Source: Sorangium aterium (GTDB lineage Bacteria; Myxococcota_A; Polyangia; Polyangiales; Polyangiaceae). From it: 64,000 nt of DNA. This document shows positions 47,879 to 62,755 of the stretch, one piece after another (position 1 is the first letter of the stretch; every line of letters starts with the position of its first letter). The stretch spans positions 1,612,001 through 1,676,000 of the forward strand of contig NZ_JAQNDK010000001.1 in NCBI RefSeq assembly GCF_028368935.1. Direction: 5' to 3'. The notes under the pieces are model-generated. The model did not search any database. It was given only the letters and a program-made list of their open reading frames with translations, and had not been told where the DNA came from. Position numbers and translations under genes: made by a program.

Positions 47879-48961
47879 ATGCCGTCTTCCCCGTCGCGGC
47901 CCACGGTGTCCATGGCCATCGTCGGCCGGGTGATCTCGTATGCCGCCTCTCGCGGGCTCCGCCACGGCGATCTTCTCGAGGTCGCCGGCGTCTCCGCCGA
48001 GTCGCTGACCGACGCGGACAGCCGCATACCGGTGACGTCGTTCGGCGCCCTGTGGGCGCACCTGGTACGCGCGCTCGACGATCCCGGGGCGCCCATCCGC
48101 CTCGCCGCGCGGACGCGCATGGAGGAGATGCACGTCATGGGCTTCGCGGTCATGACGAGCGCGAGCGCCCGTGAGGCGCTCGACCGTGTCGACCGCTACA
48201 TGGTGCTCCTGCAGGATACACCGCGCTGGGTGACCGATACCACGACGGACCGGGACGCTCCGTTCGCGGAGATGCACCGCGCGCCCCGCTTCACGCTGGG
48301 CGCGCGCGTCGCGACAGAGTGCAGCCTGGCGGTGTACATCCGTTGCTTCCGCCAGTGCGCTGGCGTCGAGTTCTCGCCGCTCCGGGTCTGCTTCCGCCAC
48401 GCCGCGCCGCGCGATCTCGCCGCGCACCGGGACTTCTTCCGCTGCCCTGTCGAGTTCGACGCGCCCCGCGATGGCTTTGCCTTCCCACCGTCGTTGCTGG
48501 ACCTCGTGCCTCGCGACGCGAACCCGGCCCTGAGCGCGTTCTTCCACCAGCACGCGGAGGAGCTCCGCCGCCGTCGCGTCGTTGACGCGTCGCCCATGTC
48601 CGCTCGGGCGCGTGACGTCATCGCGCACCTCCTCGCCTCGGGCGAGCCGTCGGCGACCGCCGTAGCGCGGCGGCTCGGGACGAGCGAGCGCACGCTGCGG
48701 CGGCACCTCGAGGACGAGGGGACGACGTTGCGGCAGCTCGTTGGCGAGGTGCGCCGTCAGACCGCCGAGGAGCTGCTCCGCGAGAGCGACACATCGATGT
48801 CGGAGATCGCCTTTGTGCTGGGGTTCTCGGAGGTGACGGCCTTCGCGCGGGCCTTCAAGCGCTGGTCCGGGAGGACGCCCGGCCGGTTCCGTGAGGACAC
48901 GCGCGGCGGCCGGGGGCGCCGCGCCGCCGCAGGCGTGGACCGCGCGGCGGACGGCGGCTGA
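47879..48961 (+). CDS. AraC-family regulator with N-terminal arabinose-operon-like domain
   Basis: A 360-residue transcription factor. Residues about 15-205 match the AraC-type ligand domain found in OruR/ArgR-like regulators (GLRHGDLLEVAGVSAESLTD, MGFAVMTSASAREALDRVDR). The C-terminal AraC DNA-binding domain (about 240-345) has two helix-turn-helix units: TAVARRLGTSERTLRRHLED and SMSEIAFVLGFSEVTAFARA. It begins 12 nt after the sigma factor stop and is probably part of that operon. The ligand is unknown. An ATG 11 codons in is possible, but neither start has a good ribosome site. Confidence 0.9.
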   Translation: MPSSPSRPTVSMAIVGRVISYAASRGLRHGDLLEVAGVSAESLTDADSRIPVTSFGALWAHLVRALDDPGAPIRLAARTRMEEMHVMGFAVMTSASAREALDRVDRYMVLLQDTPRWVTDTTTDRDAPFAEMHRAPRFTLGARVATECSLAVYIRCFRQCAGVEFSPLRVCFRHAAPRDLAAHRDFFRCPVEFDAPRDGFAFPPSLLDLVPRDANPALSAFFHQHAEELRRRRVVDASPMSARARDVIAHLLASGEPSATAVARRLGTSERTLRRHLEDEGTTLRQLVGEVRRQTAEELLRESDTSMSEIAFVLGFSEVTAFARAFKRWSGRTPGRFREDTRGGRGRRAAAGVDRAADGG

Positions 48962-49025: not shown

Positions 49026-49325
49026 TCAGTACGATATCTCGGCGGCGGCGACCTTCTCTCTCGCCGCTTCCCACGACAGCGGGAGATCCCCCGCGCCGAC
49101 GGTCCACTGGGTCACGACGCCGTGGACGCTGACCGCGCTCGCCGCGCTCATCGCCGAGAGGTGGGCGTCCGACATCACGAACTTCCCCATCGCCTCTTCG
49201 TCCTTCCACACCGTGATGGTCCTTGCATAGCCGCACTTCGCCGACGTTCCGAGCGTGAAGCCGATCAGCCCTTCCTGCGCGGGCAGCTGGGCGAGGATGG
49301 GCCCCATCAAATCGATTCGAGACAT
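49026..49325 (-). CDS. ABM/DUF3291-like protein, module copy 1
   Basis: A 99-residue protein with the ferredoxin-like ABM pattern: PAQEGLIGFTLGTSAKCG, then RTITVWKDEEAMGKFVMSDAH, then VTQWTV. It is homologous to the C-terminal half of the lipoprotein at 61647 (about 40 % identity by eye, sharing R-T-x-x-V-W, A-M-x-x-F-V-M and H-L). It lacks the signal peptide and the first strand of that protein. The ATG at 49325 has GAGG a few nt upstream. The gene follows the membrane protein gene by 45 nt, the same order as in the second copy. Heme or small-molecule binding is possible in this superfamily but not shown here. Confidence 0.78.
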   Translation of the reverse strand: MSRIDLMGPILAQLPAQEGLIGFTLGTSAKCGYARTITVWKDEEAMGKFVMSDAHLSAMSAASAVSVHGVVTQWTVGAGDLPLSWEAAREKVAAAEISY

Positions 49326-49370
49326 GATGAACCTCATGACAGGGAAGTGAGTGATGTTGTCGGGTGCAAA

Positions 49371-49820
49371 TCAGCGATCGTCGACGCGCACGGGCGAGAC
49401 CACGCCGAAGACGAGCACGGGGAAGGTCCGCTGCAGGCGGCGAGACGTGAACTCCGTGCGCCGGCCGAAGCTCCTGACCGAGACGCGCGCGCCCACCGGC
49501 TGTCCGCTGCCGAGGGTCACGGCCCACATCGGGCTGCCGCCGTCCGGCCGCACGGCGAGGTAGGTATAGCTCCCCGCTGCGAGCCGCTCCTCGACGACGC
49601 CGACAACGGGCGCGAGGTCGCCGAGGGATCTCGATAGATCGCCGAGCGGGCTGCCGGGCGGCGCGTCTCCCGCGGCGTTCAGGTCAGCGTGCGTCCCAGG
49701 ATGCGCGGCGGAGTGGAAGCCGAGCCAGCTGCCGGCGGCCACGGGCCCGACCAGCAGGGCAGCGGCCACGAGGGCGCGGGTCCGAGGGAAGCGGGAGGTG
49801 CGGTGAGCGGCGAGCAGCAT
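49371..49820 (-). CDS. membrane-anchored NrfJ-like protein, module copy 1
   Basis: A 149-residue protein with one N-terminal transmembrane segment (ALVAAALLVGPVAAGSWLGF) and an outer domain. That domain has the pattern G-x-Y-T-Y-x-x-V ... W-A-V ... S-R-x-L-x-R-T-F (AAGSYTYLAVR, FTSRRLQRTFPVLVFG), which I recognise from the small beta-barrel domain of NrfJ-like proteins in nitrite-reduction operons. It is about 60 % identical by eye to the protein at 62315. No cytochrome gene is near. The function is unknown; the paired gene downstream suggests a two-component unit at the membrane. Confidence 0.75.
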   Translation of the reverse strand: MLLAAHRTSRFPRTRALVAAALLVGPVAAGSWLGFHSAAHPGTHADLNAAGDAPPGSPLGDLSRSLGDLAPVVGVVEERLAAGSYTYLAVRPDGGSPMWAVTLGSGQPVGARVSVRSFGRRTEFTSRRLQRTFPVLVFGVVSPVRVDDR

Positions 49821-53508: not shown

Positions 53509-54150
53509 TCAAGATGCGCGGCCCGCGTCGCAGAACGCGCGGGCGCGGGCGACGAGCTCGTCGCGCCGCCCGTCGCGCAGGAGCTTGAGATCCACGAGGT
53601 TGCCGCCGACGCCGACCGCCACCGCGCCCGCCGCGAAGAAGGTGCCCACGTTCTGCAGCGTCACGCCGCCCGTGGGCATGAGCGGGATATGGGGCAAAGG
53701 CGCCTTGAGCGCCTTGAGGTAGGAGGCGCCGCCGAGGGCGTCGCAGGGGAACACCTTCACGACATCTCCGCCCGCCCGGTGCGCCGCCACGACCTCGGTG
53801 GGCGTGAGCGCGCCGGGGGCGTGGACGACGTTCATCGCGACGCACGCCCTCACCGTCGCCTCGTCGAGCGCAGGGCTGACGACGAAGCGCGCCCCGGCCT
53901 CGACGCACGCCTCGGCGGTGCGCGCATCGAGGACCGTCCCCGCGCCGACCAGCGCCCGCTCGCCGTGGCGCGCGGCGACCTCGCGCACGACCTCCACCGC
54001 GCCGGGCACGGTCATCGTGATCTCGAGCACGTCGATCCCCCCCTCGAGGAGGGCCTCGACCGCCTGCAGCGCCTCGTCGGCCGAGCCGGCGCGCACCACA
54101 GGGACGATGCGGCCACGCGCGATCCACTCGAGCACAGAGCGCTTGTTCAT
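53509..54150 (-). CDS. eda: KDPG aldolase
   Basis: A 213-residue aldolase that splits 2-keto-3-deoxy-6-phosphogluconate to pyruvate and glyceraldehyde-3-phosphate. The Schiff-base Lys is in DVVKVFPCD (about 129-131), the Glu in VLEITMT, and the phosphate-binding PTGGV follows. IVPVVRAGSADEA is the typical start. The gene overlaps the KDG kinase gene by four bases (ATGA). It is the last gene of the hexuronate cluster before the porin gene. Confidence 0.95.
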   Translation of the reverse strand: MNKRSVLEWIARGRIVPVVRAGSADEALQAVEALLEGGIDVLEITMTVPGAVEVVREVAARHGERALVGAGTVLDARTAEACVEAGARFVVSPALDEATVRACVAMNVVHAPGALTPTEVVAAHRAGGDVVKVFPCDALGGASYLKALKAPLPHIPLMPTGGVTLQNVGTFFAAGAVAVGVGGNLVDLKLLRDGRRDELVARARAFCDAGRAS

Positions 54151-55244
54151 CGGTCCACCCGGGCCGTGCCCATCTTCATCGCCTTGAGCACCTCGTCGAG
54201 GGTCGCCATCGTCGTGTCGCCGGGCGTCGTCATCGCGAGCGCCCCGTGCGCCGCGCCGCAATCGACCGCCCACTGCGGCCCCTTGCCCATCAGGAAGCCG
54301 TAGATGAGCCCCGAGGCGAACGAGTCGCCGCCACCCACGCGATCGAAGATCTCCAGGTCCTTGCGCTCCGGCGCCTTGTAGAGCCGGCCGCCCTGGTACA
54401 GCACCGCGCTCCAGTCGTTGCGCGTCGCCGAGGTCGCGACACGGAGGGTCGTCGCCACCGCCTGGATGTTCGGAAATACCCCGATGACGCGCTCGATCAT
54501 GCTCTCGAACGCGCCGACGCGCAGGGTGGCGTGCCCCTCGTCGACGCCCTCGACCTCGAAGCCCAGGGCAGCCGTGAAGTCCTCCTCATTGCCCAGCATC
54601 ACATCGACGTACGGCGCGAGCGCTCGATTGACCTCCTGCGCGCGGGCCTGACCGCCGATCGACTTCCAGAGCGAAGGACGGTAGTTGAGATCGTAGGAGA
54701 CGACGACGCCGTGCCGCCTGGCCGCCTCCATCGCCTCCTTCGCCACGGAAGGCGTGGTCTCGGAGAGCGCGGCGAAGATGCCGCCGGTATGGAACCACCG
54801 CGCGCCCTGGGCGCCGAAGATCGTATCCCAGTCGATCTCGCCGGGCTTCAGCTGAGACGCGGCCGTGTGGCCACGGTCCGAGAGGCCGACCGCCCCGCGG
54901 ATGCCGAAGCCGCGCTCGGTGAAGTTCAGGCCGTTGCGCACGAGGCGCCCCACGCCGTCGTGCGTCGCCCAGCGGACGTGCGTGAGATCCACGCCGCCCT
55001 GCAGCATGAGATCTTCGAGCAGGCGGCCCACGGGGTTGTCCGCGAGGGCGGTCACGATGGCCGACCTGAGCTTGAAACAGCGGCGCAGGCCGCGGGCGAC
55101 GTTGTACTCGCCGCCTCCCTCCCAGGCGTGGAAGCTGCGGGCGGTGGAGATCCGCCCGTCGCCGGGATCGAGGCGCAGCATGACCTCGCCGAGGGAGACG
55201 AGATCCCAGCGGCAGGTGGAAGGATCACGGAGCGTGAAGGACAT
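54147..55244 (-). CDS. kdgK: 2-keto-3-deoxygluconate kinase (PfkB family)
   Basis: A 365-residue sugar kinase. The PfkB signature at the end is GGGDSFASGLIYGF, with the catalytic Asp. SLGEVMLRLDPGDG and GGGEYNVARGLRRC form the substrate side, as in known KDG kinases. It would phosphorylate 2-keto-3-deoxygluconate for the aldolase gene that overlaps it by four bases. The protein is about 40-50 residues longer than E. coli KdgK, with additions at the N-terminus and in the middle. The transporter gene upstream ends 109 nt before this gene starts. Confidence 0.92.
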   Translation of the reverse strand: MSFTLRDPSTCRWDLVSLGEVMLRLDPGDGRISTARSFHAWEGGGEYNVARGLRRCFKLRSAIVTALADNPVGRLLEDLMLQGGVDLTHVRWATHDGVGRLVRNGLNFTERGFGIRGAVGLSDRGHTAASQLKPGEIDWDTIFGAQGARWFHTGGIFAALSETTPSVAKEAMEAARRHGVVVSYDLNYRPSLWKSIGGQARAQEVNRALAPYVDVMLGNEEDFTAALGFEVEGVDEGHATLRVGAFESMIERVIGVFPNIQAVATTLRVATSATRNDWSAVLYQGGRLYKAPERKDLEIFDRVGGGDSFASGLIYGFLMGKGPQWAVDCGAAHGALAMTTPGDTTMATLDEVLKAMKMGTARVDR

Positions 55245-55353
55245 GGATCACTTGCAGGGGTGCGGGCCGCGTGGCCGGAGAGCTGGTGGACAAGCAGGGT
55301 TCAAGGGGCCGCCGCCATCGCGGAGATGCGATGAGGCGCGTCGATGCCGGTGA

Positions 55354-57018
55354 TCACCGATCGCCTCCTGGCGCGCGAGACGACTCGACCTCTGCGGCGG
55401 ACGGGCCCGTGTAGCCCTTGGCGGCAGCGCCCTTCCCCTCGACGATGGGCCGCCCATCGCGGTCGAGCTTGACGAGCTCCGCCTTGGTCCCCGCGGCCGT
55501 CGGCCAGAGGTACCAGCGCGCGTCCATCCAGCCCACGTGGGCGGCGGGGCCCTCGACCGGCGCGCCCGTCGCTTTCAGCTGGGCCTGCCGCGCCGCGCGG
55601 TACTGGTCGAGAGAGGTGTACGCAGGACGGTTGAGGGCGAACTGCAGCCCCGCGATGCTGGCGAGCATCGCCAGGCCGCCGGCGACGACCGCCACGCTCG
55701 GCACGCGCCGCTTCGGCGCGACCGGCTCGACGCGCGGCAGGATGAGGTGCAGCGCGAGCAGGCCGACGAGGTACAGCGTCCCCGCGAGCAGGAACGGCAG
55801 GGCGTACGAGCCCGTGGCCGTGAGCGCCCAGCCGACGAAGATCTGGAAGAGCGCTCCGCCGACGACGCCGAACGCGGTCATCACGCCGACCACCGTGGCC
55901 ATCGCGGGGCGCGGGAGGGCGTCCGAGACGAGCGTGTAGAGGTTGCTGCTCCAGCCCTGGTGCGCGGCCGCGGCGAGCGACAGGATCGCGACCGCGACGT
56001 AGATCGTAGGGATGCCCGCGACGCTCGGGACATCGACGAGCAGCCCGACGGACATGACGGGCACCGCGGAGAGCGCACACGCGAGCATCGCGAGCTTCCG
56101 CGCCGTGCCGACCGATCGGCCGCCCGCGATGAGCTTCGACGACAGCCAGCCCCCGCCGATCGCGCCGCCGTCGGCCACCAGGAACACGACGGGGATCGCG
56201 TAAGCCATGAAGGTCGGCTTCAGGTTGAACTCGCTGACAAGGAACTTCGGCAGCCACGTGAGGTAGAACCACCACGGGGCGTCGGTGAAGAACTTCGCCG
56301 CCGCGACCGCGTAGACAGGCCGCATCCCGAACACCTCGCCGACGCCGAGGGACCCTGTCGCCTCCTTCGCGTCCGAGCGGATGTGCGCGAGCTCCTCGGG
56401 CGATACCTTCGGGTGCTCCTCGGGCCGCCGGTAGAGGCGCGCCCAGAAGAAGATCCACACGACGCCGACGCCGCCCAGGAGGAGGAAGCAGGTCCGCCAG
56501 CCGTACGACTCCGCGATGCGCACCGCGAGGAGCGGGGCCAGGATGGCGCCTACGTTCGATCCGCAGTTGAACAGCCCGGTCGCGAGCGCCCTCTCCTTCT
56601 TGGGGAACCACTCGGCCACGGTGCGGACGGCGGCCGGGAAGTTACCGGCCTCGCCCACCCCGAGCAGGAAGCGGATCCCGGCGAAGCCGGCGAAGCTGGC
56701 GACGATGGCGTGGCCGGCCGAGGCGATGTTCCAAAGCAGGAACGTCGCGCTGAGCCCCTTGTGCGGGCCGACGCGGTCGATCCAGCGACCGACGAACACC
56801 ATGCCGAAGCCGTAGGCGAGCAGGAAGCTCACGTTGATGAGCGCGAGATCCGTCGGCCCGAGGCGCAGCTCGTTCTCGAAGAACGGGATCAGCAGGGAGA
56901 ACAGCTGCCGATCGAGGTAGTTGATCGTCGTCGCGAAGAAGAGGAGCGCGCAGATGGTCCAGCGCGTGCGGGTCATGACGCCGGCGGTCGCCGGGGCCAC
57001 GGGAGACGCTGCGGTCAT
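55354..57018 (-). CDS. MFS hexuronate transporter (ExuT-like) with a C-terminal extension
   Basis: A 554-residue major facilitator protein. The front reads WTICALLFFATTINYLDRQL, the usual opening of the ExuT/anion:cation symporter family, and the loop VGRWIDRVGPHKGLS carries the signature between helices 2 and 3. Twelve helices end near residue 430. An extra 125 residues follow, with a thirteenth hydrophobic segment (VAVVAGGLAMLASIAGLQFAL) and a soluble tail that includes YLWPTAAGTKAELVKLDRDG. ExuT proteins are normally about 430 residues, so this tail is unusual. The start overlaps the SDR stop by four bases. It likely imports glucuronate or a related acid sugar. Confidence 0.92.
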   Translation of the reverse strand: MTAASPVAPATAGVMTRTRWTICALLFFATTINYLDRQLFSLLIPFFENELRLGPTDLALINVSFLLAYGFGMVFVGRWIDRVGPHKGLSATFLLWNIASAGHAIVASFAGFAGIRFLLGVGEAGNFPAAVRTVAEWFPKKERALATGLFNCGSNVGAILAPLLAVRIAESYGWRTCFLLLGGVGVVWIFFWARLYRRPEEHPKVSPEELAHIRSDAKEATGSLGVGEVFGMRPVYAVAAAKFFTDAPWWFYLTWLPKFLVSEFNLKPTFMAYAIPVVFLVADGGAIGGGWLSSKLIAGGRSVGTARKLAMLACALSAVPVMSVGLLVDVPSVAGIPTIYVAVAILSLAAAAHQGWSSNLYTLVSDALPRPAMATVVGVMTAFGVVGGALFQIFVGWALTATGSYALPFLLAGTLYLVGLLALHLILPRVEPVAPKRRVPSVAVVAGGLAMLASIAGLQFALNRPAYTSLDQYRAARQAQLKATGAPVEGPAAHVGWMDARWYLWPTAAGTKAELVKLDRDGRPIVEGKGAAAKGYTGPSAAEVESSRAPGGDR

Positions 57019-57788
57019 TGGTTCACCCCGGAGGCGAGGAATCCACCGTCGACTGTGATGCTCGTGCCGGTGATGAAGCTCACCGCGTCAGAGCACAGAA
57101 AGAGGGCCGCGCCGACCAGCTCCTGCGTGTCGCCGAAGCGGCCGAGGGGCGTGCGAGCGAGCAGCTCCTGCCCGCGCGGTGTGCCGTTGAGGAGGGCGCG
57201 GTTGAGGTCCGTCACGAACACGCCCGGCACGAGCGCGTTCGTCCGGATACCGTGCTTCGCCCACTCGGCGCCGAGGCTCCGGGTGAGCGCCAGCACCGCC
57301 GCCTTCGACGCTCCGTAGGCCGCGACCTCGTGGAACGCGACGAAGCTCGACAGCGAGGCGATGTTGACGATGCGGCCCCGGCCGCTGTCCTTCAAAGGGC
57401 CATGGAAGGCCTGGCAGGCGCGCAGCATGCCGGTGACGTTGGTGTCGAGCAGGCTGGCCCACTCGGCCTCTCCAACATCGGCGGTGGGCTTCCGGAAGGT
57501 CCGACCGGCGCAGTTGACGAGGATGTCGACGCGGCCGAACGCCTCGAGCACGCGGTCGCGCAGGGCGTCGAGCGTCGCGCGATCGCTGACGTCGCACGCC
57601 GCCTCGATCGAGCGGACGCCCCGCTCGCGGATCTCGGCGGCGACGGCCTGCACGCGGTCCGCGCGGGTGCCCGTGGCGACGGTGTGGGCGCCCGCCTCGG
57701 CGAGGCCGAGGGCGATCGCGCGCCCGATGCCGGAGGTGCCACCGACCACGACGGCCGTGCGGCCCGAGATGTCGAAGAGGTTCGTCAT
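57015..57788 (-). CDS. SDR-family acid sugar dehydrogenase
   Basis: A 257-residue short-chain dehydrogenase. The cofactor motif is GGTSGIGRAIALGL, followed by NCAG; the active site Tyr and Lys are in YGASKAAVLALTRSLG. Sequence and context suggest a KduD- or fructuronate-reductase-like role, interconverting keto and hydroxy sugar acids. It overlaps its neighbours by ATGA on both sides. Whether NAD or NADP is used is not clear: the residues after the loop (TGTRADRVQA) favour NADP slightly. Confidence 0.88.
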   Translation of the reverse strand: MTNLFDISGRTAVVVGGTSGIGRAIALGLAEAGAHTVATGTRADRVQAVAAEIRERGVRSIEAACDVSDRATLDALRDRVLEAFGRVDILVNCAGRTFRKPTADVGEAEWASLLDTNVTGMLRACQAFHGPLKDSGRGRIVNIASLSSFVAFHEVAAYGASKAAVLALTRSLGAEWAKHGIRTNALVPGVFVTDLNRALLNGTPRGQELLARTPLGRFGDTQELVGAALFLCSDAVSFITGTSITVDGGFLASGVNQ

Positions 57789-58903
57789 GCTCCCAGCCAG
57801 TCCTTCGCGATGCCCCCGAGGAGCGCCCGCGCGTCGCGCTCGATCTGCGCGTCGGTCGGCGGGACGGGCATGGCCCCGTAGCGCCGGGTCAGCGCTGAAG
57901 CGATCGACCGCCGCGAGTGGCGCCACTTGTAGATGAGCTGATCGAGGACGCGCGCGTCGGAGTGCTGCGGCACGAAGGTCGGCCCGAGCATCTCCAGGCG
58001 CATCATCGTCGTCTCCTCGATGAGGCTCGGGTTGTTCATGAACCACCAGCAGCCGAACGGCAGGACGTTGGCGAACTTGCGCGCCACGACGCAGAGGGGG
58101 TGCGTGTTCTCGCGCGCGAGCGTCGTGACGAGGAAGCGCACGTCGGGGTTCTCCGCGGCGAGCCGCTCGAGCGGGATCAGGTCGACCGTGCTCACGCCGT
58201 CGCCGGCCACGCCGAGGCGGGGGTTCACCGCGCGCCGGACGCCGATCATCATGGCGAACGGCAGCCCGTGCTCGCGGCACGCGTCCAGCACGGCCCGGGG
58301 CGGCGCCGAGACCTCGTTGACCGAGATCGCCAGGTAGCGCGGCCTCATGCGGGCGATCCACCGCTCGAGCTCGGACGCGAGATCGCTCGCGTGGATGAGC
58401 CGATCGAGGCGCAGCGCCGTGTAAAACCGCGGATCGGGCGTGGCGCCCGACTCCCAGATCGCGCGCTCCGCCGGGTCGGTCGGATCGTTCGTCATCGCGA
58501 GCGCGCTCACGCCCGAGAGCCGCAGCACGTCCTCCACGTGATCCTCGACCCGGCGCTCGGCGAAGAAGGCGCGGGCCTCGCGCAGATCCGGCGCGGCGGG
58601 GTCGAGCCCGAACGCGGCGAGCACCGTCGCGACGCCCGCGGTGGCCTCGGACAGCGGCGATCGGCGGACGAAGAGCGACGCCCACACGAGATCGGCCTGC
58701 GCCTTCTTGTCGAGCGCGAAGAACGCCTCGGGCGTGACCTTCGGCTCGGCGCGCAGCGCCTCGGCGACGAGGTAATGGTACGTGAGGAGCTCGTCGACGC
58801 CCCAGAGGTTCAGCGCGGGGAACTGGGGCGCGAAGAGGTGGGTGTGAAGATCGATGATGGGCGCGGCGTCGACGGCCGTGGCCACGCGCTCGGCGAGGGT
58901 CAT
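57785..58903 (-). CDS. uronate isomerase-like amidohydrolase-superfamily protein
   Basis: A 372-residue protein related to glucuronate isomerase UxaC. It has the metal-binding HxH in [11 protein letters not shown] near residue 20, and the late [20 protein letters not shown] plus [14 protein letters not shown] that parallel the UxaC C-terminal region. It is about 100 residues shorter than UxaC (about 470), so it belongs to a compact or divergent subgroup. The overlap with genes on both sides (ATGA) ties it to the pathway. A true substrate could be glucuronate, galacturonate or another acid sugar. Confidence 0.82.
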
Positions 58904-60141
58904 CTCGGCACCTCGGGGATTCGGTCGTCCTTCGGATCGGCCCAGCGGTCGTTCGGCACGGTCGCGCACCAGGCCGGCCGCAGCGGGTCCTTGTCGTAGG
59001 GATAGGAGCCCAGCCGGCGGTACTCCTCGGCGTAGTGAGCGAGCTTCTCGCGATCGAGGCGGACGCCGAGGCCGGGGCCGGCGGGGACGCGGATGCGGCC
59101 GTTCCGGTACGGGAGCGGGCCTCCCTGGATCACGTCGTCGCGCAGGTGGTGATAGTGCGCGTCGGCGGCGAACGAGAGGTTCGGGATGACGGCGCCGAGG
59201 TGCAGCATCGTCGCGAGCTGCACGCCGAGCTCGCCCGAGGAGTGGACGGCGACGCCGAGGCCGAACGTCTCGCAGATCCCCGCCGCCTTCACGCACGGCC
59301 GGATGCCGCCCCAGAACGTCGTGTCGAGCAGGATGACGTCTACCGCCGTGTCGAGGACGTTCGCGGCGAGCTGCTCGAAGCCCACGACCACGGTGTTGGT
59401 CGCGAGCGGCATCCGCACCTTCTCGCGGGTGCGCCGCATCGCGTGGAGGCCGAAGACGGGGTCCTCGAGGTAGTCGTTGTTGAGATCCTCGATCGCCTGC
59501 CCGAAGCGGATGCCCTGCTCCGTCGACCAGACCGCGTTCGGATCGAAGCGGACGCGATCCCGGCCCACGGCGTCGGCGACCGCGCGGTAACACTCGAGCT
59601 CGTAGTCCGGGTGGAACACGCCGCCCTTGAGCTTGTGCGAGGTGAACCCGTGGCTCTTCTTCAGCTCCTTCGCCTGCTCGACGAGCTGCTCCGGCGTCCG
59701 CACCTCGCCTGATCCGTCGGCGTTCGGGTAGCGGAAGAAGAGGTAGGACGCGAACGGCACCTCGTCCTGCAGCTTGCCGCCGAGGAGATCGTGGACCGGC
59801 ACGCCGAAGGCCTGTCCGAGCAGGTCGAGGCACGCGAACTCCAGCGCGGCGAGGACCTGGGTGCGGTTGTTATAAAGAGAGGCCGTCGGGTTCGCGATCT
59901 TGAACCGCATCTCCTCGAGGCGGGCGGGGTCGTGGCCGACCAGGTAGCCCTTCATCGCGCGGAACACGGCCTCGGCCGACTCGCCGCCGCCGCCCATCTC
60001 GCCGAGCCCGATCAGCCCGTTGTCCGCCTCGATCTCGACGATCGTGCGCACGAAGCGGCCCCAGTGACAGCCGTTGGCGTGGCGCAGGGGCGCCTCCAGC
60101 GGCACGGTGACGGTGGTGGCGCGGATATCGACGATTTTCAT
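58900..60141 (-). CDS. glucarate dehydratase-like enolase-superfamily protein
   Basis: A 413-residue acid sugar dehydratase. It has the N-terminal capping domain ([19 protein letters not shown]), the catalytic Lys in SHKLKGGVF, metal ligands in RFDPNAVW and YLEDPVFG, and the His side in [13 protein letters not shown]. It looks most like the glucarate dehydratase group (GudD), but the cluster carries KDG kinase and KDPG aldolase, which need a KDG-forming dehydratase, so its substrate may be an aldonate such as mannonate or gluconate. It is the first gene of the operon; the start at 60141 begins the capping domain directly. A 13-bp palindrome (CTGGGGCCCCCAG) lies 15 nt upstream. Confidence 0.88.
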
Positions 60142-60716: not shown

Positions 60717-61577
60717 ATGGCGTTCACGCTCCGCTGCATCGACGTCTCGGACTGGAAGACCTTCGGGCTGCTCCAGCTCGTGATCGACACCATCCCGGAT
60801 CCCATCTTCGTCAAAGATCGGCAACATCGCTGGATCGCCTGCAACCCGGGCTTCTGCGGGTTGATCGGGCAGCGCTACGAGGATCTGATCGGCCGCAGCG
60901 ACCCGGACTACTGGCCGAAGGCGCAGGCCGAGGTCTTCTGGAGCTACGACGACGTCGTCTTCAACTCGGGTGAGCCGAGCGAGAACGAGGAGAGCGCCAC
61001 GGGCTCGGACGGGGTGGCGCGCACGATCTGGACCCGCAAGTTCCCCATGAAGAACGAGCAAGGGCAGGTGGTCGGCCTCTGCGGGCTCATCACGGACATC
61101 ACCGACCTGAAGCAGCGGCACATGGAGGCCGAGCGGATCGCGGCCGAAAACCGGGAGCAGCGCGCGATCATCCAGATGCAGGCGGAGCTGCTCGATCGCG
61201 TGGCCATGCCGGTCATCCAGGTCTGGGAGGGGATCCTGCTCATCCCGCTGGTCGGCGAGATGAGCGATCGGCGCGCGTCCCAGGCGCTGGAGAGCCTGCT
61301 CGCGGCCATCGGGCAGCGGCGCGCGGAGTTCGTGATCCTCGACATCACCGGCGTGCCGGTGATCGACTCCGCCGTGGCGCGCCACCTGGTGCGCGCCGTG
61401 CAGGCGGCAGAGCTGCTCGGCTGCCGGAGCGTGATGGTGGGCATCGGCCCGGAGATCGCCAGGACGCTGGTCGGCCTGGGCATCGACTTCGGCCGGATCA
61501 CCACGCAAGGCACGCTCCAGAGCGGGCTCGCCTACGCGATGAGCCGCCTCAGCGGGCAGCGCGCGGCCGCCCGCTGA
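60717..61577 (+). CDS. PAS-STAS (RsbR-like) regulatory protein
   Basis: A 286-residue cytoplasmic protein. The N-terminal PAS domain (about 20-130) has DTIPDPIFVKDRQHRWIACN and GLCGLITDITDLKQ. A short helical linker (about 130-160) leads to a STAS domain (about 165-280) with ILDITGVPVIDSAVARHLVRA. The STAS Ser at the site where RsbR-type proteins are phosphorylated is present in IDSAVA. Such proteins form stressosome-like complexes or work with switch kinases, but no RsbS, RsbT or sigma-B gene is adjacent. The gene stands alone, divergent from the hexuronate operon. Confidence 0.9.
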   Translation: MAFTLRCIDVSDWKTFGLLQLVIDTIPDPIFVKDRQHRWIACNPGFCGLIGQRYEDLIGRSDPDYWPKAQAEVFWSYDDVVFNSGEPSENEESATGSDGVARTIWTRKFPMKNEQGQVVGLCGLITDITDLKQRHMEAERIAAENREQRAIIQMQAELLDRVAMPVIQVWEGILLIPLVGEMSDRRASQALESLLAAIGQRRAEFVILDITGVPVIDSAVARHLVRAVQAAELLGCRSVMVGIGPEIARTLVGLGIDFGRITTQGTLQSGLAYAMSRLSGQRAAAR

Positions 61578-61646: not shown

Positions 61647-62264
61647 TCAGGGCGCACGGGCGTCGAGCGCCCGGATGCGACGGGCCGACTCGGCCATCGA
61701 GATGCCATCGGTCTCGGCCGTTTCCCAGTGGGTGACCACATAGGTGGGTTCGAGCAGCTCGTCCGCGGCGTCGATCGCCGCGAGGTGGGCCGGGCCCATG
61801 ACGAACTCGTACATCGCGTCGGTCGAGGCCCACACGGCCAGCGTGCGCCCGGAGCCGCAGGAGGGCGACTGGCCCAGCTGGATGGCCAGGAGGCCGGGCT
61901 GTGACGCGAGGTCCGCCTGGATCGCCCCGAAGATCTGCCCGTATCGCTGCATCACGGCCTCGCCCCGCCGTGGAACCCCGTACGTCGTGCTGACCGTGTA
62001 CGACGACCCCTCCGGAGGCGGCCGGAGCTTCCCGGTCTCCGGATCGACGCCGGGCCCGCTCAGCGCGTCCGCCTCCAGATCGGCTTCGAGCACGCCCCCC
62101 GTGCACTCGGCGAGGGGAACGTCGGTCGTCTTCCCGTCGGAATCGGAGCTGCACCCCGACAGGATCGCGCCGAGCGCCGCGATGACGGCGGCGGCGAGCG
62201 CGCCCGAGGAGCGATCGAGCGTCGCGCTCAGCATCTTGTCGAATCCACGTGTCGTCATGGTCAT
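61647..62264 (-). CDS. ABM/DUF3291-like lipoprotein, module copy 2
   Basis: A 205-residue lipoprotein. The signal (AVIAALGAILSGC) ends in a lipobox with Cys near 38. A spacer (about 40-85) is followed by an ABM-like domain (about 88-185): STTYGVPRRGEAVMQRYGQI, then SCGSGRTLAVWASTDAMYEF and VVTHWET. It shares the second half with the 99-residue protein at 49026. GAGAGGACC precedes the ATG at 62264. It is 50 nt downstream of the NrfJ-like gene, the same arrangement as copy 1. Confidence 0.8.
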   Translation of the reverse strand: MTMTTRGFDKMLSATLDRSSGALAAAVIAALGAILSGCSSDSDGKTTDVPLAECTGGVLEADLEADALSGPGVDPETGKLRPPPEGSSYTVSTTYGVPRRGEAVMQRYGQIFGAIQADLASQPGLLAIQLGQSPSCGSGRTLAVWASTDAMYEFVMGPAHLAAIDAADELLEPTYVVTHWETAETDGISMAESARRIRALDARAP

Positions 62265-62314
62265 GGTCCTCTCTGCTCTGTCCGTCGCCGGAGGCTCTGT
62301 CCGTTATCGGGGGC

Positions 62315-62755
62315 TCAGTCAGCGCGCGAGACGATCCCGAAGACGAGCTCCGGGAACGTCCGCGCGAGGCGGCGTGAGTGGAAGTTCGCCTTGCGACCCA
62401 TGCTCCGCACCTGCACCGGTGTGCCGGGAGGCGGCGCGTCGCCGACGGTGACAGCCCATGTGAGGCTCTCGCCGCTGCGCACGGCGACATAGGTATACGG
62501 GCCGGCCGGGAGCCGCTCCTCGACGAGGCCGGCGATGGGCGCGCGGTCGGCGGCGGCGCGGGAGAGCTGGCCGAGCGGGTTGCCGGCCGCCGCGTCGAGC
62601 GGCCCGGCGGCCACAGAGGGCCTGTCGAGTCGCCACGCGAGCACGACGAAGAGCGCCGCGAAGACCGCGAGGCCGAGGAGCGGCTTCACGAGCCGGCGCC
62701 GGGCGGATCGCGGCGCGGAGCTCCGCGCGGCGAGGGCCGAGGAGACGAGCGTCAT
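62315..62755 (-). CDS. membrane-anchored NrfJ-like protein, module copy 2
   Basis: A 146-residue protein with a basic N-terminus, one transmembrane segment (LLGLAVFAALFVVLAWRL) and an outer domain with PAGPYTYVAVR, WAVTVGD and NFHSRRLARTFPELVFG. These are the hallmarks of the NrfJ-like small barrel (Y-T-Y ... F-H-S-R-x-L-x-R-T-F). It is about 60 % identical by eye to the protein at 49371, including the GNPLGQLSR approach to the domain. AAGGAG precedes the ATG. It is the first gene of the two-gene unit. Confidence 0.78.
   Translation of the reverse strand: MTLVSSALAARSSAPRSARRRLVKPLLGLAVFAALFVVLAWRLDRPSVAAGPLDAAAGNPLGQLSRAAADRAPIAGLVEERLPAGPYTYVAVRSGESLTWAVTVGDAPPPGTPVQVRSMGRKANFHSRRLARTFPELVFGIVSRAD

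Follow-up and report, generated by a model that had tools for sequence, protein, structure and literature searches.

Two copies of a gene pair in Sorangium aterium

The window, a 64,000-nucleotide stretch of the Sorangium aterium genome, contains two copies of a two-gene unit, in which a gene for an anchored NrfJ-like protein (gene 1) precedes a gene for an ABM/DUF3291-like protein (gene 2) (Table 1). An earlier note on this DNA had placed two open reading frames of the first copy on the minus strand, separated by 45 nt, and a second pair in the same order some 12 kb away. Both were recovered as described, the second pair spanning 61647-62755(-), about 12.9 kb from the first. The gap in copy 1 is 45 nt if gene 2 starts at the ATG at 49325 and 33 nt if it starts at the ATG at 49337; since a GAGG motif lies upstream of the former, the 99-residue product and the 45-nt gap are the preferred reading. 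The gene 1 product of copy 1 has a single hydrophobic N-terminal segment and carries the YTY and SRRLQRTF motifs. These two are the only copies of the ABM family found in the 13.47-Mb genome, and the gene 1 family has one additional, marginal match (E 0.004).

Table 1 Features of the two copies and their neighbours
Feature	Position	Strand	Description
Copy 1 gene 1	49371-49820	-	149-aa N-terminally anchored OB-fold (NrfJ-like) protein
Copy 1 gene 2	49026-49325	-	99-aa ABM/DUF3291-like protein, truncated; 103 aa if ATG at 49337
Probable ribosome-binding site GAGG	49332-49335	-	6 nt before ATG at 49325, from sequence
Copy 2 gene 1	62315-62755	-	146-aa anchored OB-fold (NrfJ-like) protein
Copy 2 gene 2	61647-62264	-	Intact 205-aa ABM/DUF3291-like lipoprotein, LSGC lipobox
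AraC-family regulator	47912-48961	+	Arabinose_bd PF12625 and HTH_18; convergent with copy 1
PAS-STAS protein	60717-61577	+	Convergent with copy 2

Between the two copies (53509-60141) lies an apparent sugar-acid catabolic operon, encoding a KDPG aldolase, a PfkB kinase, an MFS transporter, an SDR, an amidohydrolase and an enolase-family dehydratase. A link between these genes and the pair was rejected, as none of them recurred beside other pairs in our neighbour clusters. The PAS-STAS gene beside copy 2 keeps its place in G144 and So0157-2; any link to the pair would be conjectural.

Predicted folds of the two proteins

Gene 1 of neither copy matched a Pfam family. An AlphaFold model of the copy 1 protein, built from a 10-sequence alignment, showed a five-strand barrel at residues 72-143 (pLDDT 93-96), and comparison with the PDB returned OB folds, among them RPA, SSB and PriB (Z 8-9.2). 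Judging from this model, the gene 1 domain is predicted to form an OB barrel and to belong to the OB-fold superfamily, a fold so widespread that its assignment reveals no function. When the OB-fold alignment was run as a profile against PDB sequences, the only match was a marginal one to H-protein (E 0.82).

For gene 2, Pfam reported sub-threshold similarities to DUF3291 (E 3.8e-4) and ABM (E 0.028) in copy 1, and to ABM (E 0.0016) in copy 2. The scores of the window copies (15-20.6 bits) fall below the Pfam gathering cut-offs (23.1-23.5 bits), whereas a distant relative (L107) passes the ABM cut-off with 25.7 bits; sequence comparison thus argues for remote membership of the ABM/DUF3291 superfamily only. 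In structural comparison, residues 88-187 of the copy 2 AlphaFold model matched ABM structures, including 3fgv (Z 11.7, rmsd 1.6) and the cofactor-independent oxygenase SnoaB (Z 10.8), and the protein is accordingly modelled with an ABM-type alpha+beta barrel. The mean pLDDT of this model is 66, mostly because of a low-confidence signal and linker region (residues 1-50). A Trp and a His are retained in alignments of gene 2 with YqjZ and WhiE-ORFI. The modelled ABM fold alone would not establish oxygenase activity of the gene 2 product.

A lipoprotein-type N-terminus was found by pattern match in 39 of 47 ABM proteins, and the others, copy 1 excepted, show a hydrophobic N-terminal stretch on visual inspection or in the aligned reading frame. 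With the exception of copy 1, the ABM partners are therefore predicted from their sequences to be exported lipoproteins. Most family members also carry a GPG(V/Y)D-like N-terminal segment. The gene 2 family thus shares with the ABM (PF03992) and DUF3291 (PF11695) families the predicted alpha+beta barrel and the Trp and His, but differs from them in being exported as a lipoprotein, in carrying the extra GPG(V/Y)D segment and in having an OB-fold protein as partner.

The pair is conserved across Myxococcota

We examined the pairing in an order-level sample of 145 genomes and a phylum-level sample of 379 genomes, counting as strong ABM matches those with E<1e-30 in the former and E<1e-10 in the latter; the gene 1 census in the order sample used a single sequence as query. 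An NrfJ-like gene adjoined 19 of the 21 strong ABM matches in the order sample, and gene 1 adjoined 25 of 32 in the phylum sample, so that the two genes are not found apart in most relatives. Gene 1 preceded the ABM gene at 39 of the 42 paired loci; at the other three (L108, L110 and L115), which are among the 25 of the phylum sample, the order was reversed but the genes were still adjacent. Co-occurrence across the 145 genomes was equally marked (16 genomes had both genes, 2 had ABM alone, 127 had neither, and paired-type gene 1 never occurred on its own; p 2e-19), and together with the adjacency in both samples it led us to reject chance neighbourhood. The distance matrices of the two proteins were congruent over 42 pairs (Mantel r 0.79, permutation maximum 0.28), a correlation that partly reflects shared species history. 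The functional pair that the earlier note had proposed from two loci is thus borne out by adjacency in both gene orders throughout the phylum and by congruent distances, and the pair as a unit is well supported.

An ABM gene without an adjacent partner occurred in G020, G095, G165, G305 and G262, and as single copies in G333 and G416. Gene 1 was not detected anywhere in the first five of these genomes, which indicates that the ABM lipoprotein does not always require its partner. A profile search of genome contigs recovered Sorangium and Polyangium only, and, with its narrow alignment biased towards these two genera, is uninformative on other phyla. On plasmids, a search for the ABM protein found unpaired Streptomyces relatives only, and a search with a gene 1 relative found nothing.

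Copy 1 is a truncated paralogue

Copy 1 is the least typical copy of the module. Beta-1, the signal peptide and the N-terminal Cys/GPG segment are all missing from its ABM protein, whose sequence opens with helix 1. The barrel is thus incomplete, and the protein appears to be a truncated form that is probably decaying or not exported. The membrane location that the earlier note assigned to the pair therefore holds for the family, but not for the copy 1 ABM protein, which has no export signal. The two genes of copy 1 lie just 33-45 nt apart, as if the sequence between them had been cleanly deleted. An assembly error at this locus may also be the source of the truncation.

In a tree of the concatenated pair, copy 1 grouped with G132 and G139a, and copy 2 with the orthologues of every Sorangium examined; the copy 2 ABM gene has orthologues in all of these genomes. 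This separate grouping marks the two copies as old paralogues. The copies that the earlier note called independent are thus anciently diverged descendants of one module rather than separate inventions.

Judged by its sequence, copy 1 would have been inactivated recently or would be a derivative that stays in the cytoplasm. We lean slightly towards the former, a decaying duplicate in which a deletion took the signal peptide, the GPG segment and beta-1 of the ABM protein and left a remnant reading frame beside an intact OB-fold gene: the N-terminal region is kept in every other paired ABM member examined, other Sorangium second copies are full-length, and the loss was seen in this genome alone among six of the genus. 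Pulling the other way, the remaining frame retains the residues invariant in a 12-sequence alignment, has a coding-like codon GC pattern (0.59/0.51/0.87) and is preceded by a good ribosome-binding site, as a functional cytoplasmic form might be. Decay of copy 1 concerns this copy alone and is compatible with an envelope module in the family at large; copy 2 is presumably the working module in this genome.

Regulators of three unrelated kinds adjoin the pair

Neighbour clustering and Pfam searches identified three unrelated kinds of regulators beside the pair: LytS/LytTR two-component systems, LysR, and AraC with an Arabinose_bd domain. Among called genes, a regulator occupied an adjacent slot at 21 of 40 non-redundant loci. 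Of the 78 adjacent slots, 21 held a regulator, as against 14 among 357 other genes (Fisher p 6e-9); the exact p value is too favourable, since the regulator profiles were built from examples that included adjacent ones and close relatives were counted as separate loci, but the absolute contrast is still large. At the other 19 loci, including Sorangium copy 2, no adjacent regulator of these three kinds was detected. On the tree of the concatenated pair, LytTR kept mostly to a single clade, whereas LysR and AraC were interspersed, which shows that the kind of regulator has changed repeatedly through exchange. The pair of G132, the nearest relative, likewise has an AraC gene next to it. No third, non-regulator gene was convincingly conserved among the neighbour clusters.

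Since the two genes are kept together across the phylum, often beside a regulator gene, we consider them a real and apparently undescribed cell-surface module. The earlier note did not recognise the pair as a described system, and the titles and abstracts retrieved for NrfJ and DUF3291 likewise make no mention of it.

The presence of regulators could also mean that the pair serves a signalling device as its outer component, which would bind a ligand in the envelope and inform the neighbouring regulator, as the small redox or ligand sensor suggested in the earlier note might do. The LytS/LytTR loci, where kinase, regulator, gene 1 and ABM gene run in series on one strand, are arranged as such a device might be. 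We nevertheless consider a sensor accessory unlikely: LysR and AraC proteins are cytoplasmic one-component regulators that could not directly read an envelope protein, and the many loci without any of these regulators fit a target gene set better. That the adjacent regulators are of three unrelated kinds points in the same direction, to a pair that is a regulated output more than a dedicated sensor.

Cytochrome genes accompany a separate class of NrfJ-like proteins

An NrfHAIJ operon has been reported in Sulfurospirillum (PMC4585668). The putative likeness of gene 1 to the NrfJ of such operons is the motif resemblance recognised in the earlier note, and their genomic settings differ: NrfJ sits in nitrite-reduction operons, whereas the paired gene 1 class has no cytochrome or nitrite genes nearby. 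In the window, the neighbours are the AraC and PAS-STAS genes and the sugar-acid operon rather than a nitrite reductase or cytochrome operon, and open reading frames with several CxxCH motifs (multihaem) adjoined none of 17 paired loci, compared with 7 of 14 unpaired loci of about the same length that encode larger NrfJ-like proteins. Thirty-one longer loci contained just two reading frames with two CxxCH motifs each. The remark in the earlier note that no cytochrome or nitrite gene is near is thus supported, and we rejected a nitrite or cytochrome link for the paired class.

The unpaired proteins (L018-L034) form a separate, larger, cytochrome-linked class that lacks an ABM partner, and many of them have two barrels and GHP-rich linkers. 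The double-domain members in Polyangiales contain the same domain as gene 1 by profile comparison (E about 1e-11 to 1e-17), but differ from it in being larger and GHP-rich, in often lying near multihaem reading frames and in having no ABM partner. The association with nitrite operons made in the earlier note therefore suits this unpaired branch better than the pairs. Some of these proteins adjoin reading frames that carry up to 24 CxxCH motifs. A haem or cytochrome module, composed of a haem-degrading or haem-binding ABM protein and an NrfJ-type cytochrome accessory domain, would draw on the multihaem neighbours of the larger proteins and on the haem-degrading members (HmoB, LmHde) among the ABM-fold relatives in the fold list, but the scarcity of CxxCH motifs around the pairs and a non-conserved IsdG-type haem-ligand His position (located from general knowledge and inspected by eye) make it very unlikely.

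A putative signal-induced envelope module

Our main reading, to which we assign a probability of about 40%, is that the pair is a conserved two-protein, signal-induced envelope module of Myxococcota that acts on small, perhaps aromatic molecules. The OB-fold domain of gene 1 would be held at the membrane by an N-terminal helix or a lipid anchor, and gene 2 would be exported as an ABM-fold lipoprotein, a dimeric alpha+beta barrel, to the same compartment. Co-transcription of the two genes is probable, and the neighbouring LytS/LytTR, LysR or AraC regulator would control them in many lineages. The chemistry of the module we can only infer: the ABM barrel may bind or oxidise a hydrophobic small molecule that reaches the envelope and is perhaps aromatic or resembles a polyketide, and the OB-fold protein may hold the ABM protein or present its substrate. 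Somewhat more tentative is the fuller proposal of an undescribed, phylum-wide inducible system of the envelope, in which the OB-fold protein and the ABM lipoprotein would act together on aromatic or polyketide compounds at the cell surface, by oxidation or sequestration, under regulators recruited lineage by lineage.

The ABM family is known chiefly for soluble enzymes that act in antibiotic biosynthesis and in haem or quinone metabolism. An exported ABM lipoprotein with an anchored OB-fold partner and exchanged regulators suggests that ABM chemistry may also run at the myxobacterial cell surface, and intact pairs beside LysR, AraC or LytS/LytTR pose a directly testable question as to the inducer.

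A weak hint at aromatic or polyketide compounds comes from two observations. The ABM/DUF3291 proteins found on Streptomyces plasmids (L144 3956-4459 and L145 3980-4522) are encoded between P450 and DinB-family genes in biosynthetic clusters; they share the GPxVDxxTG segment and the ABM core with gene 2, but, unlike it, they are unpaired, with no signal peptide seen and no OB-fold partner among their annotated neighbours. In G127 (L049 10469-19000), a polyketide synthase gene, identified by eye from the sequence, directly follows the pair.
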